Below are positions 3-17,529 of a stretch of DNA of 21,347 nucleotides, piece after piece (the stretch's first letter is position 1; each line of letters begins with the position of its first letter). This DNA is from a virus. A model generated the notes under the pieces. It searched no databases. It had not been told where the DNA came from and saw only the letters and a program-made list of their open reading frames with translations. The stretch lies in the IMG/VR virus record IMGVR_UViG_3300006805_000193, positions 1 to 21,347 of that record; one strand, 5' to 3'. The translations under genes and the position numbers were made by a program.

Positions 3-683
3 ACAGACTTCGATTACATACAGACTAGAAACGAGATAATCGAGGGAGCGTTTAGAATTGTTGGAGCGCTAGAGAAAGGGCAGACACTCTCTGCTGACAT
101 GCTAGAACAGGGTGTGAAAGCACTCCAGTTACTCGTTAAAAGCTGGGGGAATGAGCACCTGTTCCTCTGGAGCTTTGACCATAGTAGTTTTGTTACAGTA
201 GCAGACCAGGAAGTGTACAACGCAACACTCACCCAGGCGATTATCGGCCTAGAGAAAGCGTGGGTTGTGGATTCAAACGACGACCTTCCACTCGAAGTTA
301 TAAGCTATAGTAGATACCTAGACATCCAGGACAAGGAAACTAATAGTGGTAGGCCATGCGCAATTGCGTATAGGCCAACTCCAGCCCCAAGTTTCTATCT
401 CTGGCCGAGCCCGGATGCTGTCTACACAATTAAGGCGCTCGGCGTTCTTCCATTACAGGATCTAGACACAGCAGGTGGTACTGGCGACATACCTGTTAGA
501 TTCCAGCGAGCGCTTAAGTATGGACTCGCAGAGGATTTGTTTGATGAATATCCTGGCCCAATGAATGAGAGACAATTTGTTCAGGGGAAGGCAGCGGAGT
601 TATTTAGAAGAGCTAAAATCTCTGATAGGCCAGTAGAAACCACTAACGAAGTAGAGGGACTATATGGCTATAGAAATCGTTGA
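3..683 (+). CDS. P22 gp4-like head-to-tail adaptor / tail accessory factor (5' partial)
   Basis: The reading frame is already open at base 3 (TDFDYIQTRNEIIEGAF...), so the true start lies upstream and the first in-frame ATG at 99 is internal. The 226 visible residues match my memory of the P22 gp4 family: a 'tRNEIIegAfRivGalekGq' opening, the phrase 'GVKALQLLVKSW' and a later 'RFQRALKYGLAEDLFDEYPG' helix. In P22, gp4 forms a ring under the portal, closes the packaged head and receives the gp10 hub. The gp10-like gene sits two genes downstream, which supports the call. The 3' end overlaps the tailspike gene by 20 bases. P22 gp4 is about 166 residues, so this version is longer. Confidence 0.82.
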   Translation, partial: TDFDYIQTRNEIIEGAFRIVGALEKGQTLSADMLEQGVKALQLLVKSWGNEHLFLWSFDHSSFVTVADQEVYNATLTQAIIGLEKAWVVDSNDDLPLEVISYSRYLDIQDKETNSGRPCAIAYRPTPAPSFYLWPSPDAVYTIKALGVLPLQDLDTAGGTGDIPVRFQRALKYGLAEDLFDEYPGPMNERQFVQGKAAELFRRAKISDRPVETTNEVEGLYGYRNR

Positions 684-2457
684 GTTTTTACTCTCAGGGT
701 TTACTGATAACTCCGGGGAGCCTCTAAGTGGTGGCTTAGTATATACATACAAAGCTGGGACTCTAACAAATAAGTCTGTATACACAGACAGCACAGGAGT
801 AGCTCCAGAAACAAATCCAGTAGTGCTCGACTCGAATGGCAGGAAGCAAGTTTACGCGAGTGGTTCGTATAAGTTTGTAATTAAAACTGCGGCAGGTGTC
901 ACGCTCTACACACTTGATAATCTATATTTTGAGACAAACCTTGCAACGACTGTTGCGGAAATTTCTGCACTAGACTCTGCGGGGCTTGAGATTGTAATAA
1001 GCTCTGCGATTACACTTACTGGGAATCTTACACTTACAGCACCTGTGAAGTTTCTTCCTGGTGGTAGTATTATCACTGCTGGCTATACACTTACGCTAAA
1101 TGGGCCATTAACTGCGGGAGCTCACCGAATATTTACCTCCGCTGCTGGGGAGGTAGTTCTTAGCTATAAAACAACGGCTGTTGTGCTTGCCGAGTGGTGG
1201 GGAGCTATAGCTGATGACTCCACAGACTGCACATCCGCAATCAATCAGGCAATAGCATCTACGAGAGCGACAGTCCAAATTCTCACTGGAACGTACAGAC
1301 ATACAGGTCTTACCATAAATAGGTCATTAACGTTTAAGGGGACTGGCTGGGCATCGATACTTAAAAATACAAGCTCTGTAAATCATAGTATTGAGGTAGT
1401 TGGTGATGCGACTACTATCTTAGAGCAGCTAAAAATCCAAGACCTGGCACTTACGCATACTGGAAGTGGATCGACCGTGATGGGTGTCTACATGAACAGT
1501 GTGTCAAATTTCTGGAGGCTTGAAAGGGTTTCAATTGTTGGAGCAAGGGCGAGCGGGATAAAGGTACTTGCACCACTAGCAACGAGCAGTGACTCCCTGC
1601 ACGCAATCATAGATCAGTGCTTCGTGTCTGGTTCTGGACTACACGGGCTTTGGATCGAGGGAGACGGGAATAATATCTCTGTCTACGGTGGTAAGTATAA
1701 CGCTAGCGCGAGTCATGGATTTCACTTCGATAATACCACCACAACGACACCGAATTCATTCCCTAATACGATCAGGTGCTACTCATGTGACTTGTCTGGA
1801 AATGATTACGGGCTATACGAAGGTGGACATAGCAACGCTTACTATGGGCTCAGGTTTGAAGGGAACACGACAGGGGAGATAATCCTTGCAACGAAGAGTC
1901 AATCTGCGATGTTTTTTGGAACATCCTACAGCTCTTTCCCTGCTCGTATTACTGGAACACCAACAGCGTCACCTAACTTCTATGACAAGTTCCATCCGAT
2001 GCGATTCTACAACGCTGATGGGTATCTTGCGTACTATGATGAGCTCCTAGCGACTACACGACTTGCACCGAAGAGAAGCTTCCTAACTATTACGATCCCA
2101 GCAACAGTGGCAGGGTCAGGGGCGACTGATTATCCACTAATGCCAGTAATGGATACGATGGAGATTAAGTCTGTAAAGATGGTGTCGTCTGCGCTCATAA
2201 CTGGCGCAAACACTAACTACATGGGATGGCAGTTAAGAGTTAAAAAAACAGGTGGCGCTGGCGATATTTCGCAAGCAGGAATCACGTTTACTCTTGGTAC
2301 AGACCTCGCAGCACTTACAGAAGTAGACCTAACGCTTGGACTTGCAGCTAACCTTAAACGAGTGGACGGGGACATACTCTACATTCAGAAATACGACTAT
2401 GGAACGGGAATGGCGTCTCCTCAGATAGTGATTCAAGTAGAATATGGTGGATACTAA
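664..2457 (+). CDS. Tailspike / receptor-binding protein with beta-helix
   Basis: A 597-residue protein. Residues about 1-92 form a phage tail-fibre-type N-terminal domain (FTDNSGEPLSGGLVYTYKAG... and VLDSNGRKQVYASGSYKF), a beta-rich virion-attachment module. Residues about 176-235 read like the start of a right-handed parallel beta-helix of the pectate-lyase type: WWGAIADDSTDCTSAINQAI, then TGTYRHTGLTINRSLTFKGTG. Beta-helix-like sequence continues to about 440, followed by a beta-rich C-terminal domain that may trimerise. The expected role is host recognition and possibly polysaccharide depolymerisation, though I cannot point to catalytic residues. The start ATG lies inside the adaptor gene, after a GAGGGA ribosome site. 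The stop overlaps the next start (TAATG). Confidence 0.8.
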   Translation: MAIEIVEFLLSGFTDNSGEPLSGGLVYTYKAGTLTNKSVYTDSTGVAPETNPVVLDSNGRKQVYASGSYKFVIKTAAGVTLYTLDNLYFETNLATTVAEISALDSAGLEIVISSAITLTGNLTLTAPVKFLPGGSIITAGYTLTLNGPLTAGAHRIFTSAAGEVVLSYKTTAVVLAEWWGAIADDSTDCTSAINQAIASTRATVQILTGTYRHTGLTINRSLTFKGTGWASILKNTSSVNHSIEVVGDATTILEQLKIQDLALTHTGSGSTVMGVYMNSVSNFWRLERVSIVGARASGIKVLAPLATSSDSLHAIIDQCFVSGSGLHGLWIEGDGNNISVYGGKYNASASHGFHFDNTTTTTPNSFPNTIRCYSCDLSGNDYGLYEGGHSNAYYGLRFEGNTTGEIILATKSQSAMFFGTSYSSFPARITGTPTASPNFYDKFHPMRFYNADGYLAYYDELLATTRLAPKRSFLTITIPATVAGSGATDYPLMPVMDTMEIKSVKMVSSALITGANTNYMGWQLRVKKTGGAGDISQAGITFTLGTDLAALTEVDLTLGLAANLKRVDGDILYIQKYDYGTGMASPQIVIQVEYGGY

Positions 2458-3881
2458 TGCCAACGGTTTCGATACCACTTTTTTCTAGGGTATACAAAAA
2501 CACTGATGGCTCAGTGTTAAATGACGATGCGGCTGTTCAGTACAATGGATTTTTAGATGAGCTCGGTGGCCTATCGATTCGGCCTGGCGAGGTTCTAGCA
2601 ATAAATACTGGCGATAGAAATGATGGCCTCTATATGTGGCCTGATAAGAATTACATCGTCTGTGTTGATAATGGAAATGCAACGCTAAGAAGCGTATCTG
2701 GGCAAACGCTCACAACAACACATGGTACAGGGACAGTTGACGTGCTCCCGGGGAACATGACCATATTCTGCAATGACTCAAACTATGTATTCATGGCAGG
2801 TGGCGCAAAGATTAGCTACATGGATGACTCTGGTGCAATTACTGAAATTGCAGACACTGAAGCACCAACGACCGTAACACACATTGCGTATCTTGATGGC
2901 TATATTCTTGCGATAAACGGGGACAATAGATTCTATTGGTCAAACATCCCAACGACAACAGACTGGGACGCCCTAGACTTTGCCTCAGCAGAAGCTAATC
3001 CAGATAACACTGTAGGGCTCTATGTAGTACAAAGGCAGGTGTATCTACTAGGTGCGGTAACGACTGAGATTTGGGAGAATGATGGAACTACTCCATTCTC
3101 AAGAATCCCAGGAGGGTTAATTGAGACAGGATGCGCAGCTAAGTATTCACCGATAAAGTACGGTGACTCACTTCTCTGGATCAACCAGGACTGGGAAGTA
3201 GTTCAGTTTACGGGAACACAGTTCAAAAAAATCTCAGGTAGGTACGACCAGGAGATACAGAGATTCTCGACTGTATCAGACTGTATTGGGGGCTTAGTTA
3301 AGAAAGAGGGACAAACATACTGCGTGTTTCAGTTCCCAACAGAGAATAGAACTCTTGTTTATGACCCAGTGCTTGAGGATTGGTCAGAGTGGGGATTCTG
3401 GGACTCGAACACTAGTGAATGGATTTCCTATGACTTTAGGGCTGCCGCTAGGGATATAAACACAGGGCAGGTATTTATTGGCAAGGAACGTGCTGGGGTG
3501 ATTGCTTGTCTAGATTCGAGCTCTCGTGTCGATATGACAGGAGCTACAACATCTGCACCATTTAAGTTTCTTAGGCAGACTGGGCACATAGATCATGGGT
3601 CGTCGCAAAAAAAGCGCCTTGAGAAATTAACATTTAGGGCTAAGAGGGGCGCTGACGGCTTAACTACAAATCCGAAGCTAATGCTAAGGTATAGAAACAA
3701 TGGTGCATCTCAGTGGTCAAATATCACAGAAATAGATCTTGGAGCTATTGGAGACACTAGCCATCAAATAAAGCTTTTCAGACTTGGGATTTACGAATCA
3801 AGGCAGTTCGAGATTTCAGCAACAGACGATATGTCAATCGTGCTCTCAAACGCTGAAGCAGACATAACGGTGCTACGATGA
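2457..3881 (+). CDS. P22 gp10-like packaged-DNA stabilisation protein / tail hub
   Basis: 474 residues, almost the size of P22 gp10 (about 472). Recognisable family features are the N-terminal MPTVSIPLFSRVYKNTDGS, the repeated blade-like segments with aromatic turns (GLYMWPDKNYIVCVDNG, YILAINGDNRFYWSNIP, TEIWENDGTTPFSRIPGG) and a C-terminal beta domain after about residue 370. In P22, gp10 assembles on the gp4 ring, stabilises packaged DNA and builds the tail tube to which the tailspikes bind. It overlaps its upstream neighbour by one base (TAATG) and its downstream neighbour by an ATGA. Confidence 0.85.
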   Translation: MPTVSIPLFSRVYKNTDGSVLNDDAAVQYNGFLDELGGLSIRPGEVLAINTGDRNDGLYMWPDKNYIVCVDNGNATLRSVSGQTLTTTHGTGTVDVLPGNMTIFCNDSNYVFMAGGAKISYMDDSGAITEIADTEAPTTVTHIAYLDGYILAINGDNRFYWSNIPTTTDWDALDFASAEANPDNTVGLYVVQRQVYLLGAVTTEIWENDGTTPFSRIPGGLIETGCAAKYSPIKYGDSLLWINQDWEVVQFTGTQFKKISGRYDQEIQRFSTVSDCIGGLVKKEGQTYCVFQFPTENRTLVYDPVLEDWSEWGFWDSNTSEWISYDFRAAARDINTGQVFIGKERAGVIACLDSSSRVDMTGATTSAPFKFLRQTGHIDHGSSQKKRLEKLTFRAKRGADGLTTNPKLMLRYRNNGASQWSNITEIDLGAIGDTSHQIKLFRLGIYESRQFEISATDDMSIVLSNAEADITVLR

Positions 3882-4456
3882 CGGTTAATAAACTAGCAAG
3901 ACCACCGAAGGATTTAGGCTCGTTCATTGGGCGAAAATGGCTAGAGTCTTTAACCAATCAACAAGATCAGTTCTCTGCGATTGCACAGCTAGATTTCTTA
4001 CTAGTACAGCAAGACCCAACAGGCGGCGATGACCTACCAAACGCTAGAAACCTTGAGGTTACATCAGAGCTTACAATTACAGACTCAGGTGGCGGGGCTG
4101 CACTAACGCTTGACCTGTCTGACACTGGCATTACTCCAGGCTCTTATAATCTACTTACGGTGAGCGCGACTGGAAGAATCACTAGCGCTCTAATGAATGT
4201 AGTAGTTGGCGAGATAATCAACACAGACGGCTCACTTGGTGTTTCTGGAACAACAACTGTTACAGTTTCTATCGACACAAGCCATGCAAATGTATGGACA
4301 GTAGATCAGTCTGTACCAGATGAGGTTTACGGGATTGGGTGGGATGGCTCACTTGAGATACCGACAAAAAACGCTATCTACGATAAGATTGAGTCATTAA
4401 CATCAGGCTCAGCTTCTGATGGTGATGCTAGGCGCTTAATTCACATGGGATATTAA
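3878..4456 (+). CDS. Probable minor virion / fibre-type protein
   Basis: 192 residues of uncertain function. A basic, helical N-terminus (residues 1-45) is followed by beta-rich sequence with alternating Thr, Ser and Val (LEVTSELTITDSGGG, TVSATGRITS, VSGTTTVTVS). Near the C-terminus is the phrase VYGIGWDGSLEIPTKNAIYD (part of residues 148-168), which resembles the 'vPTKnAvYDKI' segment seen in many phage fibre and tail proteins. It sits directly behind the gp10-like hub (ATGA overlap), where P22 carries its tail needle gene. I do not see a clear long needle-like coiled coil, so I call it only a probable minor structural protein. Confidence 0.55.
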   Translation: MTVNKLARPPKDLGSFIGRKWLESLTNQQDQFSAIAQLDFLLVQQDPTGGDDLPNARNLEVTSELTITDSGGGAALTLDLSDTGITPGSYNLLTVSATGRITSALMNVVVGEIINTDGSLGVSGTTTVTVSIDTSHANVWTVDQSVPDEVYGIGWDGSLEIPTKNAIYDKIESLTSGSASDGDARRLIHMGY

Positions 4457-4779
4457 TGGCTATAGCAGTCAAAGTTTTAGCGGATGGGCAGCTAGCAAGC
4501 GCTAAGGCAACACTGTACACAGTGCCTGCGCTTACTAAGGCGTATGTAAAGTTCTTTTCTGTGATGAACGTTTCCGCTGGGACTGAAAACGTTACTATCT
4601 ATATAAATAGTTCTGGAACATCTAGGAAAATAGCGTACGCAACTCTTGGGGTTGATGAAAGCGCTAGGATTGTAGACAAGGATGAAGCAATTACCCTAGA
4701 GGCTGGGGATTTGATCGAGGGGTTCTCCTCAAATGCGACTAGTGTGGATTATGTCATTACGGGAGCTGAGGAAACGTAA
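4456..4779 (+). CDS. Small beta-rich structural protein
   Basis: 107 residues, almost entirely short beta-strand-like segments (ATLYTVPALTKAYVKFFSV, ENVTIYINSSGTSRKIAYA, ITLEAGDLIEGFSSNATSVD). Proteins of this pattern are frequent in phage virion clusters as decoration or fibre accessory subunits, but I do not recognise a named family. It has one-base TAATG overlaps on both sides, so it is translated with its structural neighbours. No signal peptide or membrane segment is visible. Confidence 0.55.
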   Translation: MAIAVKVLADGQLASAKATLYTVPALTKAYVKFFSVMNVSAGTENVTIYINSSGTSRKIAYATLGVDESARIVDKDEAITLEAGDLIEGFSSNATSVDYVITGAEET

Positions 4780-5096
4780 TGAGAATGTATAGTGCGCATG
4801 GAGAGAAACTTGGACCACGGGCTGGGTACAGTACTATTAACGATGGTAGTAAGGATGTAACAACAGCAGGGACGAGGGTAGCGCTTTCCACATCTACTCC
4901 ATGCAAGAAGGTAGTAGCTGTAGCAAAGGCTACGAATACAGGTGTGATATGGATTGGAGGGGCTACGATAGCGGCTGGAAGAGGTGAGCCACTTGTAGCT
5001 TATCAGAAGACAGAAATAGAGATATCTAACTTAGCGTCAGTTTATATTGATTCAACGGTGAATGGTGAAGGCGTTACTTTTACATATTTTAATTAG
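4779..5096 (+). CDS. Small beta-rich structural protein
   Basis: 105 residues. The segment from residue 27, beginning TAGTRVALSTSTPCKKVVA, then NTGVIWIGGATIAAGRGEPL and ending ASVYIDSTVNGEGVTFTYF, resembles a beta-sandwich module I associate with phage minor virion proteins. Function is otherwise unknown. The last 35 bases overlap the start of the next gene in another frame, so the 3' end also encodes the next product's signal peptide. It is coupled to the previous gene by TAATG. Confidence 0.55.
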   Translation: MRMYSAHGEKLGPRAGYSTINDGSKDVTTAGTRVALSTSTPCKKVVAVAKATNTGVIWIGGATIAAGRGEPLVAYQKTEIEISNLASVYIDSTVNGEGVTFTYFN

Positions 5097-6264
5097 TGCG
5101 CTTGCGATTACGGCAGTAGCACAGCCGTTTCCACCTCCTCAGCTGAAAAACGAGGGGACAGCAGCAGGGCCATACCATTCCCTAAACTGTGTGGGGCCAG
5201 CAGTAAACTGCACTAACAGTAGCGCTCAGGCTACAATGACGATTGATGTTGAGGCAGGAGACATCTCAAATCTCTCCGCAAGCGATACTCAGGTTCTATA
5301 CAAGGACGGCACCGGAATAAGCGGCGATGCCGATATGACGTGGAACGAAACCACCAACACACTTGACCTTGGGACTGGACTCTTAGAGGCAGGATATTTA
5401 GGGCTGGCAGGAACAGGGGCTAGTACGGCGGCGGCTATAAATATCGGTAACATCACATCGGCAGATATGATCTCCCCGATTCTTGCAAACATAACCTACA
5501 CTGGCACAAGTACAGTTGTTGCGGCGCTGCAATCAGAAATGAACCACACAGGGAGCGCAGTGTCCCCTACAGTTTGGGGAGTAAAGGCAGCAGCAAGGGC
5601 AGGGTCAAACAATTTCGGGATTAACTCTTATGTTGGTATCCAGGCAGACGCAACGTACAATAGTAGCTCAGAAACTTGCGGAGCGTTTGAATACTGCGTT
5701 TTTTACGGGATTGATGCGGTAGTGCTAGGGGAGCCTGGAGGCTCTCATGATGCAACATCGACTAATATCGCAATCGGTGTTTACGTTCCAGCATTTGGCG
5801 CAGTAAGTGGTGGAACATTCATACGCCACGGAATTTTGATGGGGGAGCCACTATCCTTAACCGCTGGGACTAGGGTTGGTTACGATGCAGGGGTTTTTAA
5901 CAACTCTACTACAGTTCAGTATTACGACAGCGGAACAAGTGAGCTCAGGACCGAGGTAGGTGGCACAGAAATCATGTCAGTAAAGGCTACAGCTATTGGG
6001 TTTTTTAATACTAATCCAGTCGCTAGGCCGTCTGCATACACACAGACCTATTCAACAGCATCAAGAACAATGCCAAACCTGACATCTTCATCAGTGTCAG
6101 CGACAGCCAAAAAGGAAGATGGAAGTGCATGGTGCTTCACTACTGATACCGAGTTGAATAACCTTATCACAGCAGTCAATGCACTACGGACGGACGTTGA
6201 TAACGGCAAGAAGGTAACCAACCAACTAATCGATGATTTACAGAGTTTTGGACTACTACAATGA
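5062..6264 (+). CDS. Fibre-like protein with N-terminal signal peptide
   Basis: 400 residues. The N-terminus (MVKALLLHILISALAITAVA|Q) is a typical Sec signal peptide with a predicted signal peptidase I cut after A20. The centre is Gly/Ala/Thr-rich and beta-like (residues about 55-330). It has paired cysteines (C43/C50 and the later CGAFEYC) that could form disulfides. The C-terminus carries TNPVARPSAYTQTYSTASRT, a phrase I associate with phage fibre proteins, then a short heptad-like helix (residues about 365-400) suited to trimerisation. The start overlaps the previous gene by 35 bases and has no strong ribosome site, so translation may be coupled. A Sec signal on a structural-type phage protein is unusual. 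Confidence 0.65.
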   Translation: MVKALLLHILISALAITAVAQPFPPPQLKNEGTAAGPYHSLNCVGPAVNCTNSSAQATMTIDVEAGDISNLSASDTQVLYKDGTGISGDADMTWNETTNTLDLGTGLLEAGYLGLAGTGASTAAAINIGNITSADMISPILANITYTGTSTVVAALQSEMNHTGSAVSPTVWGVKAAARAGSNNFGINSYVGIQADATYNSSSETCGAFEYCVFYGIDAVVLGEPGGSHDATSTNIAIGVYVPAFGAVSGGTFIRHGILMGEPLSLTAGTRVGYDAGVFNNSTTVQYYDSGTSELRTEVGGTEIMSVKATAIGFFNTNPVARPSAYTQTYSTASRTMPNLTSSSVSATAKKEDGSAWCFTTDTELNNLITAVNALRTDVDNGKKVTNQLIDDLQSFGLLQ

Positions 6265-6578
6265 AAAAACTACTACTCGCTATCCTATTCCCTGCAAGCC
6301 TCCTGGCTCAGACACCTACACCAACCCCAGATCCAGATGAGCAGATTGGGCAGCAGTATGGTATCTCTGCGCTAGAGGTCAAAATGCAGCGTATCACCCA
6401 GGCTTTTAACGAGGTTCGGGAGCTCCAGAAGGTGGATCGTAGTGGAAAGGTAGGGACTGGGAGCGATGTGATTTTCGATATTACTACAGAACAAAGGCAG
6501 TCAGTAAGGCATGCTAGGCGAGCAAAGCTTCAGGCAATTAAGCAGCTATGTAGGGACTTAGCAGAGCCAGCGGAGTGA
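6261..6578 (+). CDS. Small secreted helical protein, unknown
   Basis: 105 residues. The N-terminus (MKKLLLAILFPASLLA|Q) is a textbook signal peptide with the cut predicted after A16. It is followed by a TPTPTPDPDE linker and a mainly helical, charged region (residues 30-105) ending RHARRAKLQAIKQLCRDLAE. No family is recognised. It is coupled to the previous gene by an ATGA overlap, so it may act with that fibre-like protein in the periplasm or on the particle. Confidence 0.6.
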   Translation: MKKLLLAILFPASLLAQTPTPTPDPDEQIGQQYGISALEVKMQRITQAFNEVRELQKVDRSGKVGTGSDVIFDITTEQRQSVRHARRAKLQAIKQLCRDLAEPAE

Positions 6579-6590
6579 GTATTTATAGGG

Positions 6591-6619
6591 TTCCTACTAT
6601 TTAATTTAAGGGGTATAAT
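6591..6619 (+). promoter_or_regulatory. Possible sigma70-type promoter, leaderless start
   Basis: A perfect TATAAT at 6614-6619 follows a weak -35 (TTCCTA, 6591-6596) with 17-base spacing. The next gene's ATG begins only 7 bases after the -10, so a transcript would start at or next to the start codon (leaderless or nearly so). This lies in the only gap in the region (6579-6625), and no clear Shine-Dalgarno sequence precedes the ATG at 6626. Confidence 0.35.
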
Positions 6620-6625
6620 TCGACC

Positions 6626-7492
6626 ATGAAAATCAACGCAAAATTACTAGCAAGGCTATTATTTACGCAGGTAGTAATAGCCTCCGTAGCGATTGCAGCT
6701 CCTATCGTCTCCATCTGGGATAAGGCTGGGGCTAATACAAATCCAGCTATTAGGCCAGTACCGCTATACGGCTTTAATGGTGGGATTACAACCACGTTTG
6801 AAGCTGCGTGGCCTGAGTCTGCTGTCTATACACCAACCCTAGCAGCACTTTCCTCTCCCTACTGTGCATCTTCTAGTGCTAACGATGCTGCGGCTGGTAC
6901 GGGAGCAAGAACTGTTCTTTTAACTGGCATAAACACATCGTTTGCAGAGTTTACTGAAACCGTAACGATGAACGGGCAGACCTCTGTAGTGCTTGCTACC
7001 GCAAACATCCTACTTATTAACTCAATGGAGGTTATCACGGCAGGTTCTGGTGGCTTAAACGCTGGTATAATCCAGTGCGGAACTGGGGCAAACACGTCAG
7101 GGGACCCGGCAGTACCACACTCATATATGCCAATCAGCTCTGCAACAACCGTAGCAGGCGCTGGCAATAAGGCGAACTCCTTCATTTACGGAGTCCCTGC
7201 ATCCAAGTCCCTTCTCTGTAGGAATATTTCAGCAGGAAGCGTATTCGCTACTGCGGCAGCAAGTGTTCAAGTCGCAATCGATGGCTACACAAATCTTGGC
7301 CTAATGAAACGCTTTTTCATGCAGCATGTTCATAATACAGGCTCTAACCCATCTACCTATCCAGGGACTATAGTGTTCCCAGAGAAGACTATAATCATTG
7401 GTAAGCTTGCAGGGCCAACTGGGACAAACACAGGACCAGCAGACTTAAGAGCAGAGTGTGTCTTAGTTGACAGCAACTACGCTGATTTATAA
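6626..7492 (+). CDS. Structural-type protein with N-terminal signal peptide
   Basis: 288 residues. The N-terminus has a basic n-region (MKINAKLLAR), a hydrophobic core (residues 11-24) and an AIA|A-type cut near residue 24-25. Residues about 75-145 contain SANDAAAGTGARTVLLTGIN, FAEFTETVTMNGQTSVVLAT and GSGGLNAG. I associate this pattern with a beta-rich module in phage virion proteins. Four cysteines lie in the mature part. It starts after a 47-base gap with a possible promoter rather than by overlap. It may be a surface appendage or decoration protein, but export would be unusual for that role. Confidence 0.6.
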   Translation: MKINAKLLARLLFTQVVIASVAIAAPIVSIWDKAGANTNPAIRPVPLYGFNGGITTTFEAAWPESAVYTPTLAALSSPYCASSSANDAAAGTGARTVLLTGINTSFAEFTETVTMNGQTSVVLATANILLINSMEVITAGSGGLNAGIIQCGTGANTSGDPAVPHSYMPISSATTVAGAGNKANSFIYGVPASKSLLCRNISAGSVFATAAASVQVAIDGYTNLGLMKRFFMQHVHNTGSNPSTYPGTIVFPEKTIIIGKLAGPTGTNTGPADLRAECVLVDSNYADL

Positions 7493-7504
7493 AGGGGAAG
7501 ATTT

Positions 7505-8236
7505 ATGAAGAGCATGATCAAGTTGTTTTTAGTGGCGTTGTTAGCACCTATCATAGCGCTCGCGCAGGATAATATTAGCCAATCTACGGGCATAATCGGT
7601 AATGGCAGGTTACTAGGGGCTAAGACTTATGACGGACAGGTGACTGTGGGTGTTCTTGGAGTTGATAGCTCTGGAAACACGACAATCCAATCATTGTCAG
7701 GAAAGAGTGTTAGCGTTCCTGGGACAATGGCAATAACTGGAGACGCGACACTCACTGGTAACGTAGTTCTAGCAACGTCAGCTAAGGGGCTTTTTACTGA
7801 TACAGTAGACGCAGCGGATGACCAAATTATCGACCTCTCCGCTGCAAGTGCTATTGGCGTGACTCGTGGTGCTGCTCTTAGACTTGGTGGCAACGAGTCC
7901 TCTATCGCTGGGAAAGCTAGGCTTGTTGGTGGGCAGGTATCGACTGGGGATATTGAAATTTATACTAACCATGCGTCAGCCTCTACTATCATTTCTGGTG
8001 GTAACGCTGGAGTCGTTCAGACTAACAACGCTACAGGGCTTGTCTTGGCAGCAGGTAAAACACTTACGTCCGTTGCGACTAGCGACATTGGCTGGGCTGC
8101 TGTAGCAGGTGCAAACACTGCATGTAACACAACCTGCACTTCTGGATGCGTGTTTGGCTTCGATGCTGGAACAACTGCCTTAGTAAGTTGCGCATCAGCT
8201 CTTGCTGATACTTGTGTATGCGCTGGGGCTTCATAG
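7505..8236 (+). CDS. Fibre-like protein with signal peptide and Cys-rich C-terminus
   Basis: 243 residues. The signal peptide MKSMIKLFLVALLAPIIALA|Q is cut after A20. The middle is repetitive beta sequence (TIQSLSGKSVSVPGTMAITG, DATLTGNVVLAT) as in phage fibres. The last 40 residues hold six cysteines (C207, C211, C215, C229, C237, C239) after GWAAVAGANTAC, suggesting a compact disulfide-bonded tip that would form in the periplasm. It is preceded by GGGGAAG at a good distance from ATG. I recall similar C-termini in uncultivated phage fibres, but cannot verify this here. Confidence 0.6.
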   Translation: MKSMIKLFLVALLAPIIALAQDNISQSTGIIGNGRLLGAKTYDGQVTVGVLGVDSSGNTTIQSLSGKSVSVPGTMAITGDATLTGNVVLATSAKGLFTDTVDAADDQIIDLSAASAIGVTRGAALRLGGNESSIAGKARLVGGQVSTGDIEIYTNHASASTIISGGNAGVVQTNNATGLVLAAGKTLTSVATSDIGWAAVAGANTACNTTCTSGCVFGFDAGTTALVSCASALADTCVCAGAS

Positions 8237-8248
8237 GATAGGAGGATT

Positions 8249-8785
8249 ATGGGCTGGTTTGATGAGATTGGTAGCTGGATTGGGAAGAATAAGGACTGGC
8301 TAGAGCCTGTTGTGTCAATCGGCACTGGAGCTCTGAAGCAGGTCAACGAGGACAAGGCAGCGGCTGGCTACATGGACTATTTACGAGAAAGGGAGCAGCA
8401 GAACTATCAAAGCTCTGTTGATCAAATCAATGCATACAATAGTCAGTTGGCCGCTAGTGGTGGTGGTGGTAGGAGCGGTAGTGGGAGCAATGCTGCTGCC
8501 GCTGCTGCGGCTCGTACGAATGAGAAGCGTAGTCGCAAAGCGTCGAAGAAGGCAAATGATGCGCTACAGGGAACCTACAAGCAGATCCTAGAAATGTATG
8601 CTCCTTACAGAGCGACAGCAGACAAGCTACTCCCACAGATGACACAGACCTACCAGAACTCTCTTGGTCTACAGAACGCACTTGCTCAGTATGTAAACAG
8701 TCCAGCACAAGTTGCAAAGCTTGATGCTGCTGGACCTGCCTGGAATGTAAATGTACCACTCCCTGATTCAGTGAGGCTAAAGTAA
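8249..8785 (+). CDS. Probable internal virion / DNA-ejection protein
   Basis: 178 residues, opening with an amphipathic MGWFDEIGSWIGKNKDWLEP, then helices, a Gly/Ser/Ala low-complexity linker (residues about 69-88) and a basic stretch (RTNEKRSRKASKKAND). Small helical proteins like this commonly lead the ejection-protein cluster of podoviruses. I place it there by position and character, not by a recognised family. It has a strong ribosome site (AGGAGG, 8240-8245) just before ATG. This marks a new translational unit after the four secreted proteins. Confidence 0.55.
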   Translation: MGWFDEIGSWIGKNKDWLEPVVSIGTGALKQVNEDKAAAGYMDYLREREQQNYQSSVDQINAYNSQLAASGGGGRSGSGSNAAAAAAARTNEKRSRKASKKANDALQGTYKQILEMYAPYRATADKLLPQMTQTYQNSLGLQNALAQYVNSPAQVAKLDAAGPAWNVNVPLPDSVRLK

Positions 8786-10000
8786 ATGGCGATTAGGTCT
8801 GCAACACCTGGGCGTGGCTACCAACAAGCTCCAGCGCTTACAATGGAGCAGTGGCTTGCAGAGCAGGAGCGTATGGGGAACTACAGCTACTCTAGGGCAC
8901 CTATGAGCGTATCAGCTCAGCAGGCTCAGCGTGCACCTTCCACTAGTGGTATTGCCTCAACAGTAGCGCAGAAAGGGGTGAGTGAGCTCCTAAAGGGTGA
9001 TACTCTTTCAAACATATTCGGGAGCTCGTCTACTCCAGCGGCAACCACTACAGCAGCAGCGCCAACAGCAGTAGGGTCAGCAGCTAATGGTGGAACGATG
9101 ATGTCAGATGGTTCTATTATGGGAGGTTCTGAGGGTGGGTTATCTTTCGGTAATGTAGCTGGAACGATAGCAGCACTCAAAGGTGGCTACGACACTATAA
9201 ACGGCTTACAGCATGGTGGTGAGGGGCTCAGGGGTGGGCTAACCACAGCAGGCGCAGGTGTTGGGCAGCTAATTGGAGGTCCATTAGGCGCTGGCGCTGG
9301 GGCTCTACTTGGTAACATTGCAGGGTACGGGCTACAGGGTGATGGCTGGAAGAATAAGCTTGCGCTTACAGCAGTTCTACCTCCACTAGGGATTGCTAAA
9401 ATGCTTGGCTTTAACCCTATACATAAGACAACTAGGCAGGTAGCGCAGGAGCATACAGCAGACCTACAGAAACAGTTTAAGGATGATTCTACCTATCAGG
9501 CGTACGTCCGGGGAATGAGGGAGCAGTACAACGCACCTCCACCTGACCCAACAAAACCATTTGCTGGAAAGTATGCAACCTGGGATGAGTACAAGAAAGG
9601 TGGCCTAGAGGCAGGGGACCTTACTGGTGTTTACGGAAACCTAAAGACGTTTGGGCAGGACTGGTCAAACATTGACCAGGCTAAGAGGCAGGCAGTTACT
9701 CAGGGGCTAATCGATGCTGGGCTATATAACAGTAAGAAAGGTGAAGTAGAGATTACTGACTCAGCAAAGGCTAGGCAGATCTATGACCAGATAGTAAAAG
9801 GCTCTGGCTACAAACCCCCAACTACCACAACTGCTGGTGGGGTAAGTGCTGGTAGGGGACCAACACAGAATCCAGACCCTGGTAGGATAGTTAGCGGAGC
9901 GCCGGTACCATCACCTACGATGATTCCACGTTCTAAAACTAAATCTCCTGGTATTGGCTTAGATGGTAAACGACTAAAGGCGGTAGGGGGTAGGCTTTAA
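8786..10000 (+). CDS. Probable internal virion / DNA-ejection protein with glycine-zipper segment
   Basis: 404 residues. The N-terminal 110 residues are Ala/Ser/Thr-rich and likely flexible. Residues 151-182 form a glycine-zipper-like hydrophobic run (GVGQLIGGPLGAGAGALLGN), followed by another apolar stretch at about 190-210. Such segments let ejection proteins insert into the host envelope as a DNA conduit. The C-terminal half is charged and helical with a basic tail. ATG directly follows the previous stop (TAAATG). The role is inferred from composition and place between other ejection-type genes. Confidence 0.55.
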   Translation: MAIRSATPGRGYQQAPALTMEQWLAEQERMGNYSYSRAPMSVSAQQAQRAPSTSGIASTVAQKGVSELLKGDTLSNIFGSSSTPAATTTAAAPTAVGSAANGGTMMSDGSIMGGSEGGLSFGNVAGTIAALKGGYDTINGLQHGGEGLRGGLTTAGAGVGQLIGGPLGAGAGALLGNIAGYGLQGDGWKNKLALTAVLPPLGIAKMLGFNPIHKTTRQVAQEHTADLQKQFKDDSTYQAYVRGMREQYNAPPPDPTKPFAGKYATWDEYKKGGLEAGDLTGVYGNLKTFGQDWSNIDQAKRQAVTQGLIDAGLYNSKKGEVEITDSAKARQIYDQIVKGSGYKPPTTTTAGGVSAGRGPTQNPDPGRIVSGAPVPSPTMIPRSKTKSPGIGLDGKRLKAVGGRL

Positions 10001-10950
10001 TGGCAATGATTCCAAAAGTAAATTTCACATCGAAGCTTGGCACTAATATCAATGTTGGTGGTATTACTGGGAAACCACTACAGCGTATTAAGCGGCTTGC
10101 AAACACTGGTTACGGTGACAAGGCTGCAATGGTAGCAAAGCGTAACAGGATTAAGATTCGGCGTGCTGGTGCTCCTGCTGAAACTCCAGTTACTGACACC
10201 CCAGTAACCACAACCCCTGACTACCAGATTCCACCTGGGGAGATGCAACCATCTGGCCCTATAAACTTCCAGCCTATTGCTGGTGGTAGTCCAACAACTC
10301 CAGCAGCGCCGTCACAGGACCAGGTTAATACACTGTTTCCGTCTACTAGGATGTTCGAGCCACAGAACTATGAAGGCTCACCACTCTATCAGTTCCAGGT
10401 TCAGCAGGGACAGAAGCAGCTTAGCAAATCCCTTGCAGCTCGTGGGCTTAGTAACTCTGGGCATGCTATTGAGCAGGAGCTAAACATTCCATTACGAGCA
10501 GCAGCACAGGATACTGACAGGATGACAAGGATTGCATCCGAGAACGCTGAAAGGCTTAAGTCATTCCAGGATAATGAAGCACTAAGACAGGAGCGTGCAA
10601 GTAACAACCAGTGGGATAGGGCTTACTCTGTTGCGGAGCTCATGGCGAGACAATCACCATACCAGTCTGCACTTGATGGGCTTAATAACTCAGCAGACTC
10701 TATGCTTGGTGCTGGCACTGCCGAGGCTAACTTTCTAAAGGACTACTTTAAGAAGGTCATAGCTCAGGGTGGTGGAGGCGGCGGTGGTGGTGGTGGCTCT
10801 GCGGGAACTCCGATACCAGTGCCAACAGCTCCTAACTATATTAACACACAGCCAACTGGAATATCTGGGAACTACTCGTCTAACAATGGGTGGTTAGACT
10901 TACTGACTAAGGGACTATCTAGTTTATTCCCATCAGCACCTGCTAAATAG
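10000..10950 (+). CDS. Probable internal virion protein (DNA transfer type)
   Basis: 316 residues. A basic N-terminus (KRNRIKIRRAG) and Pro/Thr-rich linker lead to residues about 123-225, where YEGSPLYQFQVQQGQKQLSK and RGLSNSGHAIEQEL resemble a helical module found in many phage internal or injection proteins ('sPgYqFql.qG...l..s.aarG...sG'). Ten consecutive glycines (10768-10797) separate this from a short hydrophobic C-terminal helix (WLDLLTKGLSSLFPSAP). It is coupled to the previous gene by TAATG. Confidence 0.6.
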   Translation: MAMIPKVNFTSKLGTNINVGGITGKPLQRIKRLANTGYGDKAAMVAKRNRIKIRRAGAPAETPVTDTPVTTTPDYQIPPGEMQPSGPINFQPIAGGSPTTPAAPSQDQVNTLFPSTRMFEPQNYEGSPLYQFQVQQGQKQLSKSLAARGLSNSGHAIEQELNIPLRAAAQDTDRMTRIASENAERLKSFQDNEALRQERASNNQWDRAYSVAELMARQSPYQSALDGLNNSADSMLGAGTAEANFLKDYFKKVIAQGGGGGGGGGGSAGTPIPVPTAPNYINTQPTGISGNYSSNNGWLDLLTKGLSSLFPSAPAK

Positions 10951-10960
10951 GAGTTTATAA

Positions 10961-12091
10961 ATGCCTCCAAGTTATAAACCACTAGCTGCCGGAGTTCAGG
11001 GAATACCTGAAGAGATATTCAACAATCCTGGAATTACGTTTGAGGATGCTCAAAAGCAGCAGGCACTTGCTCGTGCTCAGGAGCTTGCTAATCAGCGAAG
11101 TGAGCAGCAGGTACGCTCCGAGGAGATGCAGATAGCAGAGGCTCAGAGACAACTAGAGCAGCAGGCTAGGCAGAGGGATGCTATAATAGGTAAGTTTGGG
11201 GCTGGTGGTGGTGAGTTTAACCCAGACGAGGGGTTAAGAACTGCGCAGAGAGTAGCGCTTGAGGGTGGGGATATTTCCACAGCTCTTGATATAGAAAAGG
11301 CACTACGGGCTAGGAAGATTGGTGGTGGTTTTGGTGGGTCTGGTAGCGCTGCGAACATGCCACTACCAGAGGCTATGAGAATAGCAGCGAGCGAGCAACT
11401 TGGGATAGAGCTACCCCCAGGGACTACTCAAAAAGATATTGCAACCCTTACTGGTATAATGAGAACTAGGACCTACGCAGACCAGGTAGGGACGTATGTA
11501 AACGACCCTAACAGGGAGTTAAATGCTCAGACAAAGGCTGCTAGGCTTGCTGGAGAGCAGGTTACAAAACCATCTGAAAAACTTGCGCTTTCGGTTGGAG
11601 CTTCGACAGCGTTTGGTAATGAGGTAGATCGCACACTAGAAAGATACGTTCCGTACGTTTCTGAGAATAGAGGGGTTAGGTTCCTTGCAGCAATGGCAAA
11701 CCCGAACTCAGCAGCGGCTAGGTATATGGGAGCGGTAAACCTCCTCGCTAAACAGGCAGCATTAGCATTAGAGGACAGGGTAACAAATGAGGATTATGCA
11801 ATCATTAAAGAGCTATCCACTCCGACTGAGCTAGATACACTAGAAACAATGATGGATAAAGCAAGGGAGCTTAAAGGCTTTATTAAGCGTCGAACAGAAC
11901 AGAACTTACTCGCGGCAGAGTCTGTGAACATAAACGTTACTAAGCTAAAGCAAATGGCTGGAATGTCTAGCCCAACACCTACCCCACTAACACCTGGGGC
12001 GGCTCCTGGTGGTGGTGGCGTTCCCCTAAACCCAGACGGCACACCATTATCTCGTGAGCAGTTTATGGCTCTAAGAAACAGAGGGCAGTAG
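10961..12091 (+). CDS. Probable internal virion protein, helical
   Basis: 376 residues. Residues about 25-70 are Gln/Glu/Ala-rich with heptad character (coiled coil, AQKQQALARAQELANQRSEQ). The rest is mostly helical, with a Pro/Gly-rich linker near the C-terminus (TPTPLTPGAAPGGGGVPLNP) and an end resembling a processed-tail motif (SREQFMALRNRGQ). No named family is recognised. Size and setting between a DNA-transfer-like and a very large glycine-rich protein suggest a subunit of the ejectosome. Ribosome site TAGGAG precedes the ATG, and the next gene starts immediately after the stop (TAGATG). Confidence 0.5.
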   Translation: MPPSYKPLAAGVQGIPEEIFNNPGITFEDAQKQQALARAQELANQRSEQQVRSEEMQIAEAQRQLEQQARQRDAIIGKFGAGGGEFNPDEGLRTAQRVALEGGDISTALDIEKALRARKIGGGFGGSGSAANMPLPEAMRIAASEQLGIELPPGTTQKDIATLTGIMRTRTYADQVGTYVNDPNRELNAQTKAARLAGEQVTKPSEKLALSVGASTAFGNEVDRTLERYVPYVSENRGVRFLAAMANPNSAAARYMGAVNLLAKQAALALEDRVTNEDYAIIKELSTPTELDTLETMMDKARELKGFIKRRTEQNLLAAESVNINVTKLKQMAGMSSPTPTPLTPGAAPGGGGVPLNPDGTPLSREQFMALRNRGQ

Positions 12092-14836
12092 ATGGACGAG
12101 TATGAACAGTATCTTGCTGATGTTGAGTATGAGCAGTACCTAAGACAGGCTCAGCAGCAGAGCGTAAATAGCGCTATGAGCCGCTCTGGTGGCCCAGTAC
12201 CACAGCCAGCTCCTACCCCAGCACTACCACCATTTGCGCAAAATCAAAGTAGTCAACTTGGCCCAGATTACAGCCAGTCACTAGGCCAGAACGCACTAAA
12301 AGGTATTACAGACCTCCCAGACTCAGTAGCCCACATGGCTAGTGACGCTTACGGATTTGCTAGTGACCCGATTGGCTCGTTCCAACGTGCTGGGGTTGAG
12401 GGCACTGCCAGGACCGTGGGCCCGTTAGCGATGGGGACTGCTGGGGCATTATCGCTTGGTGGTCTTGGTGCCACTGCTGGGAGCTTCCTTGGTCCTCTCG
12501 GCACAATCGCTGGCGGCGCAATCGGTGGTGGTCTTGGCCTTGGTGCTGGACTCCTCGGCTTCGATGCAACAACAAACTTCCTTACAGGGACTGATAAGCC
12601 GGTAGATGAGTACCTAAAAGACTTCGCATACAACTCTACCCAGGGTGGAATGTTTGAGGGTGGAGCTCGTGGGATAGGGGCTGCTGGGCGCGGAATAAAG
12701 AAAGTAGGGTATGACCCTTTTACGCCAGCAGGGACTGACATAAAAGTAGGCAGCGAGCTACTCAAGCAAGTTCCAGACCTAGCGCAGCAAATAGATGCTG
12801 GGTACGCCAATAGTGTTGATGTACCACCTACGTTCCTGGATAAGCGATCTCTTGGAGAGCTTACAGGTAACGATGCGCTAAAGGCAGCACAGAGAACAAT
12901 TGAGCGCTCTGGGAATGAGGCTTACGGCAGATCTGCTGAGGCAAGGACAGCTCGTAATGATGCACAGTTAAAGTACCTTGACGCGATTGAGCAGTCCCCA
13001 GCTACGGCAGCAGATGCGCAGGCTGCAATGCAGGGTAGTTTTGACAGTAGAATTGCAGCAGCTCAAGACGCAATGAATAGCGCAAAGGGTGCTGTCGATA
13101 CTCAGTTAATAGATCTTGCCCCTAAGATAGACCCAATGGATGCAGGAGCTACTATTAGAGACACGGCGCAGAGCTCAAAAGATGCGCGGCGTGGGATTAT
13201 AAGTAAGAAGTTCGAGGCTGCCGGGGATGGTGTTGTTGATATTACTGACGTGCAAACAGTAGCGGCAGATACGATGCCAGCCTATTTCAGGGAAGTTGGG
13301 AAGCAGGCAAGCCCAGAGCTACAAACACTCGTGGAGCAGCTAACTAGGACAGCAGAGGCTGAACCAAGTAGTATCCTAGACCTAAACGGAGACCCTATTG
13401 TTAGGCCGATTACCTACTCACTTAAGGATGTTCAGGCGCTTAGAAGTAAGGCACTAGATATTGCAAACGGTAGCGACAAGGCAACCGCGAGAGTTGCTGG
13501 GGATATTGCAGCAGCGCTACTTAAGGTAGGAGAGGATGCGGCTGCGTCCGGGAGAATACCACCTGAATCTGTTAAGAACTGGAAGGAGGGAATATCGCTC
13601 CGAAAGAAGCTAGGGACTGACTACGAGTCTACTGCTAACCCAACTAAATCAGTATTAGCTAAGCAACCTTACGGTGACCCAAGAATAGAAGCTTCAAGAG
13701 TGCCAGAAAAGTATTTCAAGCCTGGGACTCGTGGAACCAAGGAAGCGATACTTAATTACAAAGAGGTCGTTGGTGCTAGTGAGCAGGCACTTGAACCACT
13801 CTATCGCTACGCTACGGATTCATTCAGGGATTACGCTGTAAAAGATGGGGTAGTAGACTCAGCCAAGGCTAAGAAGTGGCTAGATAGACACTCAACATCA
13901 CTTGAGCAGCTACCAGAGCTCAAGAAACAATTATCTGATGTTCATAGTGCGCAGCAATTTCTAAATGAAAAGTTTGGTGACCTAACTAGAACTCAAGCAG
14001 AGATGGAGAAAGGTGCCGCTAAGCAGTTCCTACAGGCAGACCCAGAAAAGGCTATTCAAGCAATGCTATCTGGGAAAGATATGGTTCGTAGAACAACGGC
14101 GACTGTTCAGTATCTAAAGGCAAATGATGCTGATGCTGTTGCAGGGTTAAGACGTGGAGTCATTGAGCACTTAAAAAACAAAGCGTTTAAACCTGACAAC
14201 ATGGGTGGAATAGAGGAAGCGCTTGCTGGTGGAACCTTTAAGGGTAAGGTGCTTGGTGGAGTGCTCACTAACGAGTACACAAGAATAAAACCAGCGCTCA
14301 CTAGGTCAAAGCTATTCACAGAGTCACAGATAAAGGCGATGGATTATCTCTACAACGATAAGAACTCGCAGCTCTCGATTGACAATGCAAAGGCTCCTGG
14401 TGGTTCTGATACTATGCAGCTTAGTTCTACAATGGCTACGATGTTTAGGGCTGCTGGGGATGGTTTCATAAGAAACGTTCCTTTCGGTAGGACTATTTCA
14501 TCTGTTGTTCTACCTGTGTTGAAGGCTATCCCAGCGGATGCGTTTAAGCTAAGGATGGAGGAGGCGTTACTTAACCCAAGAATCGCTAGAGACTTAGTGC
14601 AAAAAGCCACTGCCAAGAATATGACAAGAACAGCAATGGAAATATTCAAGGATGAGTTTACGGCTGCTGGGGCGATACGCTCAGCTACGTCAACTAGTGC
14701 TGTGGTGTCTAAACCAGCCATAAAGAAACAAGAACAAGTAACGTCGAAGGTATCGTTTCCAAACCCAACAGACTTATTAAACCCTCCTGCGAAGGGTGAA
14801 CTAAGAAAAACAACTATTGGTAACAGGGGGTATTGA
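12092..14836 (+). CDS. Large internal virion / ejection protein
   Basis: 914 residues, the largest product in the window. The first 20 residues contain a doubled EYEQYL motif. Residues about 109-157 are a long glycine-rich hydrophobic stretch (GATAGSFLGPLGTIAGGAIG within it) that could span a membrane several times. The remaining 700 residues are mainly helical and charged, without enzyme motifs I can recognise; I looked for lytic transglycosylase motifs such as ESxxNP and GLMQ and found none. It is likely a genome-ejection protein comparable in role to P22 gp16 or the T7 core proteins, but no homology is claimed. The end overlaps the next gene by one base. Confidence 0.6.
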   Translation: MDEYEQYLADVEYEQYLRQAQQQSVNSAMSRSGGPVPQPAPTPALPPFAQNQSSQLGPDYSQSLGQNALKGITDLPDSVAHMASDAYGFASDPIGSFQRAGVEGTARTVGPLAMGTAGALSLGGLGATAGSFLGPLGTIAGGAIGGGLGLGAGLLGFDATTNFLTGTDKPVDEYLKDFAYNSTQGGMFEGGARGIGAAGRGIKKVGYDPFTPAGTDIKVGSELLKQVPDLAQQIDAGYANSVDVPPTFLDKRSLGELTGNDALKAAQRTIERSGNEAYGRSAEARTARNDAQLKYLDAIEQSPATAADAQAAMQGSFDSRIAAAQDAMNSAKGAVDTQLIDLAPKIDPMDAGATIRDTAQSSKDARRGIISKKFEAAGDGVVDITDVQTVAADTMPAYFREVGKQASPELQTLVEQLTRTAEAEPSSILDLNGDPIVRPITYSLKDVQALRSKALDIANGSDKATARVAGDIAAALLKVGEDAAASGRIPPESVKNWKEGISLRKKLGTDYESTANPTKSVLAKQPYGDPRIEASRVPEKYFKPGTRGTKEAILNYKEVVGASEQALEPLYRYATDSFRDYAVKDGVVDSAKAKKWLDRHSTSLEQLPELKKQLSDVHSAQQFLNEKFGDLTRTQAEMEKGAAKQFLQADPEKAIQAMLSGKDMVRRTTATVQYLKANDADAVAGLRRGVIEHLKNKAFKPDNMGGIEEALAGGTFKGKVLGGVLTNEYTRIKPALTRSKLFTESQIKAMDYLYNDKNSQLSIDNAKAPGGSDTMQLSSTMATMFRAAGDGFIRNVPFGRTISSVVLPVLKAIPADAFKLRMEEALLNPRIARDLVQKATAKNMTRTAMEIFKDEFTAAGAIRSATSTSAVVSKPAIKKQEQVTSKVSFPNPTDLLNPPAKGELRKTTIGNRGY

Positions 14837-15228
14837 TGAATGATGAGACTAGCGAAGTCACGGCAGCTAAGCTACCTCCTTACCGACTGCCTCCTGGTAC
14901 TCCTAAGTGGATACTTATCCTATGTTGCGTGGTTAGTGGTGTTATTGTACCTAGTTTCCTGGCTTTTAGCCCCCAGCTTTCTGAGGTAATTCAGGGCGCA
15001 ACTGAGGCTAGAAGAGCGCAGGCTGAGAACGAGAAGACCGCACTTGGTACAGTCCTTGAGCTCGTAAACACAAACATTCGGCAGATATACATACTAAGCG
15101 AAGCACTCTCCAGGGAGCAGGAAGAGAAGAAAGAGCTCGCAAAAAGAGTTACAGATCTAGAAAGAGCAGTACAAACACATAACAATGCACTTAAAGACTG
15201 TGAGGCAAAGCTTAAACTATGCCACTAG
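14836..15228 (+). CDS. Membrane-anchored coiled-coil protein, i-spanin-like
   Basis: 130 residues when started at ATG 14836. A TTG three bases earlier is a poorer choice, because AGGGGG lies about 8 bases before the ATG. There is a short Pro-rich cytoplasmic N-terminus (residues 1-24), one membrane helix (WILILCCVVSGVIVPSFLAF, 25-44) and then a long heptad-rich helix (about 50-125). This topology fits an inner-membrane spanin (Rz-like), which helps disrupt the outer membrane at lysis, and the next gene is the lysozyme. No embedded or adjacent outer-membrane partner is visible on this strand. A different membrane-tethered role is possible. Confidence 0.55.
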   Translation: MNDETSEVTAAKLPPYRLPPGTPKWILILCCVVSGVIVPSFLAFSPQLSEVIQGATEARRAQAENEKTALGTVLELVNTNIRQIYILSEALSREQEEKKELAKRVTDLERAVQTHNNALKDCEAKLKLCH

Positions 15229-15722
15229 AATTCTACGATGCAGTAGCTAGGGTGTTTGATGTGGATGAGGGTACTGGTGTTCCTGGTAAGGAGGGGATTC
15301 CCTATAAGGACACTAAAGGCTACTGGACAATAGGGCGTGGGCATTTAATCGGGGAGTCTTTAACTGACTTAAAACTATCACGGCATATAGTAGAGGAGCT
15401 TTTTAAGGAGGATCTCGCTATTGCTATCCGTGAGTCTAGGCTTGTTGTGGGTAGTTTATTCTTTGACAGCCTAGCACCTGCAAGACAGGTAGCTCTTATC
15501 TCTATGCTCTACACTCTTGGCCGGAATAAGTTCCTGCGGTTTGAGGAGACTATTGATGCCATAAAGCGCAATGACTGGCAGGAGGTAGGGCGTAGAGTCC
15601 TCGCAAGTAAGTGGGCAAGGGACGTTGATCCACGGCAGAGAGTTGGAGTTGGCAGGGACGACCGTGTAGCACACATGTTTATAACAGGTGAATTTCACCC
15701 ATATTACGGGATTGAAAAATGA
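15219..15722 (+). CDS. T4-type lysozyme endolysin (GH24)
   Basis: 167 residues, close to T4 lysozyme (164). The catalytic triad is present: E17 in VDEGTG, D31 in PYKDT and T37 in GYWTIGRGHL, with the D-to-T spacing of six residues as in T4. Five extra residues lie between E17 and D31 compared with T4. The C-terminal lobe keeps the usual ALISMLYTLGRNKF and WQEVGRRVLASKWARD segments. It cuts the glycan strands of peptidoglycan at lysis. No signal or anchor sequence is visible, so a holin would be needed. It overlaps the spanin-like gene by 10 bases and the next gene by ATGA. Confidence 0.92.
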   Translation: MPLEFYDAVARVFDVDEGTGVPGKEGIPYKDTKGYWTIGRGHLIGESLTDLKLSRHIVEELFKEDLAIAIRESRLVVGSLFFDSLAPARQVALISMLYTLGRNKFLRFEETIDAIKRNDWQEVGRRVLASKWARDVDPRQRVGVGRDDRVAHMFITGEFHPYYGIEK

Positions 15723-17467: not shown

Positions 17468-17485
17468 AGTTTTGCCTGTTGTTTT

Positions 17486-17529
17486 AGTGGGTACCGTAGT
17501 GCTTGTTCTCGCAACGGTACCCACTTTTT
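17486..17529 (+). terminator. Strong rho-independent terminator, rightward
   Basis: Perfect 12-base inverted repeat: AGTGGGTACCGT at 17486-17497 and ACGGTACCCACT at 17514-17525, with a 16-base loop containing a further TGC/GCA pairing. It is followed on the + strand by TTTTT (17525-17529) and ATTATT. On the minus strand the hairpin is followed by AAAA, so termination is expected for rightward transcripts only. It lies in the leader of the leftward transglycosylase gene. Confidence 0.8.

Follow-up and report, generated by a model that had tools for sequence, protein, structure and literature searches.

A block of four consecutive genes (5062-6264, 6261-6578, 6626-7492 and 7505-8236) whose products carry Sec-type signal peptides was identified in the virion module of the IMG/VR virus record IMGVR_UViG_3300006805_000193. 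The window, the whole stretch of DNA that was analysed, comprises positions 1 to 21,347 of this record, and the block lies in it between head-closure and fibre genes on one side and ejection-protein genes on the other. The sequences of the four products support their predicted export well, and no other part of the virion module shares this property. In the textbook view, assembly of tailed-phage particles is wholly cytoplasmic. The reading favoured here, which is given nearly an even chance, is that the block encodes Sec-exported, mostly fibre-like appendages that would be stabilised by disulphides in the periplasm and would attach to virions at lysis. Its computed basis comprises the normal form of the signals, the location of the genes among virion genes, recurrence in other lineages, coupling of the signal to a six-cysteine cap domain, cysteine enrichment and the kinship of one product to a virion-annotated family.

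All four open reading frames (ORFs) for which a preliminary description of this DNA had proposed Sec signals were present, and all score in the exported range. Their N-termini are MVKALLLHILISALAITAVA (5062-6264), MKKLLLAILFPASLLA (6261-6578), MKINAKLLARLLFTQVVIASVAIA (6626-7492) and MKSMIKLFLVALLAPIIALA (7505-8236), with predicted cuts before Q, Q, A and Q, respectively. Each contains the basic n-region, the hydrophobic core and the small residues at -3 and -1 of a Sec (SPase I) signal. The signals were scored with a home-made scorer based on the charge of the n-region, the hydrophobicity of the h-region and the -3/-1 rule; two regions of E. coli K-12, with about 86 genes in all, served for its calibration. 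Known exported proteins scored at least 8.08 (with the exception of yjbM, whose 'exported' label is doubtful) and cytosolic proteins at most 6.46; the scorer alone does not exclude signal anchors, because some E. coli inner-membrane proteins score high too. The four products scored 9.28, 8.56, 9.46 and 10.14, respectively, and all 11 other genes of the virion module scored at most 5.4, in agreement with the earlier claim that the signals are confined to the block. The cut between AIA and A proposed for 6626-7492 stood only in part: the signal was recovered, the site is ambiguous and the scorer prefers a later cut between GA and N. Whole-protein shuffles of the four products reached 8.5 in 0.2-1.25% of trials. 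As an ORF background, 31 of 1171 mechanically called ORFs in related loci (2.6%), many of them spurious, reached 8.3. Chance adjacency of four signal genes among 19 plus-strand genes amounts to 16/3876, or about 0.4%.

The gene starts are consistent with the called positions. Good Shine-Dalgarno sequences precede 7505 and 8249 and a moderate one (aagggg) precedes 6626, and translational coupling seems likely for the genes starting at 5062 and 6261, which overlap the preceding gene by 35 nt and 4 nt, respectively. In none of the four genes did an in-frame start 3' of the hydrophobic segment have a convincing ribosome site.

The product of 7505-8236 ends in a six-cysteine domain, termed the cap domain, that fits the pattern C-x-T-T-C-x(3,4)-C-x2-G-x-D ... 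C-x7-C-x-C at or near the C-terminus. An alignment of the domain from 11 proteins contains 14 invariant columns, including all six cysteines. The domain was not found in 50,697 phage records, Pfam, NCBIfam or PDB sequences, and it is, as far as these searches indicate, unnamed and new. Relatives were obtained by an IMG/VR homology scan, a cysteine-spacing pattern and then a tighter pattern, all of which are blind to the N-terminus. The loose spacing pattern returned mostly chance cysteine-rich frames and one true new member, L215. Nine viral lineages besides the window contain the domain (L002/L003, L004, L005, L215, L224, L226, L229, L230 and L231); L003 duplicates L002, and L232 is a 5'-cut near-copy of L229. 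In L230 about 45 further residues follow the domain. No GTDB genome matched the first domain patterns and one, a Paceibacterota metagenome-assembled genome (MAG), matched the DNA pattern. This MAG (L233) holds the sole cellular cap-domain protein, and no second cellular copy was found in a sample of 380 genomes from its phylum. At L233:2449-5830 the cap-domain gene is followed by two more secreted-protein genes.

A signal peptide is present in all 11 distinct cap proteins with an intact N-terminus, the window protein included (scores 9.0-10.9). Conservation of the signal in homologues, which the preliminary description had named as a check, thus holds for 7505-8236 in all relatives whose N-terminus is intact. 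The L004 cap protein has a signal peptide only from an internal start (8.75-9.6). Its single ORF (L004:5787-8150) opens with an S49 head protease, and a signal-like segment, then a decoration-type stretch and finally the six-cysteine domain follow; an internal-start gene may account for this arrangement, or an artefact of assembly. Because the fibre-type middle regions of the cap-domain proteins are mostly unrelated, the signal and the cap travel as a pair that simple common descent of entire proteins does not explain. A cysteine-pair motif (C[AS]..L ... LC/IC) directly after the cut site is shared by L215, L224 and L226. The AlphaFold2 (AF2) model of 7505-8236 is unreliable (pLDDT 45).

The signal-bearing genes are also enriched in cysteine. 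The median number of Cys per 100 aa was 1.57 in 17 signal-bearing and 0.25 in 50 signal-free virion-module genes from eight lineages (p 2e-7), and with the cap domain removed the signal-bearing median was 0.97 (p 0.006); these p-values are only indicative because the genes were hand-chosen from mechanical ORF calls and are not independent. Such enrichment is expected of folding in an oxidising compartment and is evidence for real export independent of the N-terminal segment. Cysteine parity was considered as a disulphide test and dropped as too weak.

Similar blocks were identified in other cap-domain lineages. L226 contains a signal and cap gene, a small lipoprotein gene and two more signal-peptide genes in a row, 5' of adaptor-type and ejection-type genes. 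Three signal-peptide genes in a row occur in L231. The major head gene of L230 is immediately followed by two, and L002 has two with one 97-aa gene between them. Three lineages thus have at least two adjacent non-lipoprotein signal-peptide genes in the virion module. In L224 the one signal and cap gene is preceded by the major head gene and a gene of 166 aa. The signal and cap gene lies in the head module in L215, L005 and L004 and beside tail- or ejection-type genes in L226 and L002. Five annotated genes related to the head-closure gene of the window had no signal-peptide gene in the corresponding slot.

The L226 signal-peptide protein encoded at 1556-2893 carries the gene transfer agent (GTA) head-spike-fibre domain NF048003 (1.2e-26), which suggests exported capsid spikes. 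The phage-record relatives checked for it are signal-free tail or fibre proteins, and the phage-record relative of a second L226 signal-peptide protein is likewise signal-free. NF048003 was not matched by the four window genes, and the likeness to the GTA head-spike fibre runs only through the L226 protein. One signal-peptide protein of L231 had no phage match. Small coiled-coil lipoprotein genes lie directly after or near the signal and cap gene at L226:700-924, L215:2913-3194 and L002:10867-11133; their products may be spanins or may partner the exported proteins. The signal-peptide block of L231 includes a gene (5012-8170) whose predicted exported product, a pectate-lyase-like protein of 1052 aa, is of the PelZ type (3.5e-23) and contains long Thr/Pro linkers. 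An 807-aa ORF at L005:8142-10565 matches DUF5661, 2'-5' RNA ligase, uracil-DNA glycosylase and the XkdF head protease.

Among the four products, only that of 6626-7492 has detectable relatives in named phages. No match was found for 5062-6264 or 6261-6578 in Pfam, PHROG or NCBIfam; the former had no relative in phage records or IMG/VR and its C-terminal module no phage match, and the latter is likewise without relatives. The structural-type character claimed earlier for the block holds for 6626-7492, which belongs to a virion-annotated family, and is in keeping with the head-spike domain in a similar block elsewhere; 6261-6578 is coiled-coil-like and not a fibre.

Relatives of 6626-7492 occur in podovirus-type and cyanomyovirus genomes, and that of cyanophage S-SCSM1 (SSCSM1_31) is annotated 'virion protein'. 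Virion proteins of S-SCSM1 were identified by mass spectrometry of CsCl-purified particles (PMC9602691). As a single sequence 6626-7492 found no relatives in the IMG/VR scan, whereas an alignment search of IMG/VR found more than 300. A family profile built with the window protein included (A5) covers window positions 6674-7477 (E 6e-72), identity to 52 relatives is 27-32%, and the motifs of the two-domain core are kept (GTGARTVxVxGL, ETVTxNGQT, AGSG..NAG and VPAGxT). The product thus shares the domain family of phrog_8198 and SSCSM1_31 but has a signal instead of the family arm. Among the best 80 of the more than 300 IMG/VR relatives none has a signal peptide, and nearly all open with a conserved N-terminal arm, EPFELQVxRGQIxGH, that in 6626-7492 is replaced by the signal peptide and a linker. 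On its sequence, 6626-7492 is a divergent relative rather than a canonical family member. The preliminary description had held that homologues without the hydrophobic segment would speak against a signal. Such homologues are a property of this family (0/80), and the signal of 6626-7492 takes the place of the arm and is not a mis-annotation.

The four cysteines of 6626-7492 occupy positions that are hydrophobic in the family and lie in predicted strands. Its AF2 model contains two jelly-roll-type domains (pLDDT 74, pTM 0.75), and the best viral Foldseek matches were unnamed tailed-phage proteins. One domain has a jelly-roll similarity to the carbohydrate-binding domain of the cyanophage A-1(L) short tail fibre (8ke9) and to the TNF-like lectins BC2L-C and PLTL, at TM-scores of 0.27-0.35 on the target, a resemblance at fold level only. 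No member of the family was found on other cap-domain contigs.

In the favoured reading, the mostly fibre-like products would be made as preproteins in a late virion operon and exported by the Sec translocon of the host. Signal-peptide cleavage and oxidation of the cysteines in the periplasm would follow, and the 7505-8236 product would be capped by its six-cysteine domain. At lysis the mature proteins would most probably come upon finished virions and become attached to them externally, as head spikes or tail appendages. All of these steps, from export through cleavage and disulphide pairing to attachment at lysis, are inferred. The wider proposition, that in a group of tailed phages a set of virion appendages passes through Sec, acquires disulphides on folding in the periplasm and is added to finished particles at lysis, with part of the virion thereby built outside the cytoplasm, is put forward tentatively, at rather less than an even chance. 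The preliminary description had offered three roles for the block, namely addition to the particle outside the cytoplasm, coating of the infected cell and action on the surface at release. The sequence does not separate them, and the cysteine enrichment and virion-module location favour the first over the other two. Given the recurrent exported fibre-like block and its undescribed cap, either particle assembly in some tailed phages would be completed outside the cytoplasm or soluble adhesins would be released alongside virions. Either outcome, if true, would change what genomes are taken to say about host range, superinfection and virion stability, and the cap motif is a simple handle for finding more cases.

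Several points weigh against attachment to virions. No tailed phage is known to mount Sec-exported appendages, and a literature search, with most subscription journals outside its reach, found nothing direct on Sec-exported virion proteins or appendages in tailed phages. None of the cap-domain phages is cultured or among named phages. The arm that 6626-7492 lacks might be the virion anchor. Some blocks hold an enzyme (the pectate-lyase-like protein of L231) or small lipoproteins and look more like secreted accessories, and the single cellular copy of the cap is in a secreted protein and not in a virion.

The products may alternatively be exported and never enter the virion, acting as soluble or surface adhesins or decoys that cover receptors on host cells or debris, with superinfection exclusion and less virion loss as the result. 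In this explanation, the main rival of the favoured reading and considered rather unlikely, fibre and virion-protein modules would be re-used with the docking arm swapped for a signal peptide. The signal of 6626-7492 in place of the arm conserved in 80 relatives fits this explanation, as do the small exported coiled-coil proteins or lipoproteins in or beside several blocks and the position of the cellular cap-domain protein among secreted-protein genes. Exported phage proteins that respond to superinfection are also known, such as the T4 antiholin RI, which is reported to have a cleavable signal peptide (PMC8385771). However, the genes are inside the virion operon and not among morons, and head-spike and virion families are represented among their domain types. 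A route across the outer membrane is not apparent either, so the proteins would be periplasmic before lysis in a diderm host.

It is improbable that the signal-like N-termini stay unprocessed, as membrane anchors or as helices with which the virion penetrates membranes, or that the gene starts are wrong. The high ratings that the home-made scorer gives to some inner-membrane proteins and the relatives of 6626-7492 without a hydrophobic segment are compatible with these possibilities, whereas the hydrophobic cores are short with Ala sites at -3/-1, convincing downstream starts are missing, the signal is fully conserved with the six-cysteine domain, cysteine is enriched, and the mature N-terminal motif after the cut is conserved in three phages. 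Periplasmic helpers of lysis or envelope disruption that are fibre-like by chance are least probable: exported genes do lie near lysis or peptidoglycan-enzyme genes in L231, L229 and L002, but the window block is about 7 kb from the lysozyme and spanin-like genes (14833-15722) with virion genes on either side, the block follows head genes in L224, L230 and L215, and hydrolase or holin features are absent.

Export of phage proteins by the host pathway is shared with the T4 RI antiholin, SAR (signal-anchor-release) endolysins and o-spanins. Those proteins are lysis regulators, enzymes and spanins encoded outside the virion module, whereas the window products are fibre-like and encoded inside it. 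The pIII protein of filamentous phages is a virion adhesin made as a preprotein with a Sec-engaging signal sequence (PMC8310372). Filamentous phages, however, assemble at the inner membrane, whereas contigs of the window type encode tailed-phage head, closure and ejection proteins.

The features of the window are listed in Table 1. The head-closure protein used as a query found no relatives in the IMG/VR scan. Two of the genes 3' of the block match phrog_598 (DNA ejection), 8249-8785 at 3e-5 and 10000-10950 at 0.003. Signal-peptide genes carried as morons outside the virion operon were ruled out in the window, with virion genes immediately on either side.

Table 1. Position and characteristics of features in the window
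Feature	Position	Strand	Characteristics
Window	21,347 bases		linear IMG/VR virus record; probably a fragment
Virion module, podovirus-type	99-14836	+	includes SU10-type adaptor gene
Tailspike-like protein, pectate-lyase-type	664..2457	+	Pfam Pect-lyase_RHGA_epim 8e-5, below its cut-off; signal scorer negative
Head closure / P22 gp10-like packaged-DNA stabilisation protein	2457..3881	+	phrog_578 2e-45; 50 phage records
Three small fibre-type genes, 5' of block	3878..5096	+	signal-free
Fibre-like protein, 400 aa, predicted exported	5062..6264	+	signal peptide residues 1-20, cut between AVA and Q; 5 Cys in mature part
Small protein, 105 aa, predicted exported	6261..6578	+	Pro/Thr linker then coiled-coil-like helix; cut between LLA and Q; 1 Cys
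Virion-protein family member, 288 aa, predicted exported	6626..7492	+	two jelly-roll-type domains; 4 Cys; phrog_8198 7e-8
Fibre-like protein, 243 aa, predicted exported	7505..8236	+	cut between ALA and Q; C-terminal six-cysteine cap domain
Six-cysteine C-terminal domain	8066..8233	+	last 56 residues; core C-[ND]-T-T-C-x3-C-[VI]-x-G-x-D ... C-x7-C-x-C
Five ejection/internal virion-type genes, 3' of block	8249..14836	+	no signal peptide and zero Cys in all five
Spanin-like gene, lysis-type, after module	14833-15228
Lysozyme gene, lysis-type, after module	15219-15722

Other genes were observed downstream of the virion module. A gene at 15719-16762 (+), between the lysozyme gene and a small holin-like gene, encodes a protein of 347 aa with 7 Cys that belongs to no family. 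A small lipoprotein-type gene (17637-17912, -; signal score 9.69) lies on the strand opposite to the virion module and adjoins an SLT transglycosylase gene (17027-17524, -). A zinc protease signature of metzincin type (HEVGHGLGADH, then SPTVMNSGV) occurs in the product of 20196-20756 (-), which has weak Pfam M10/M12 matches only.

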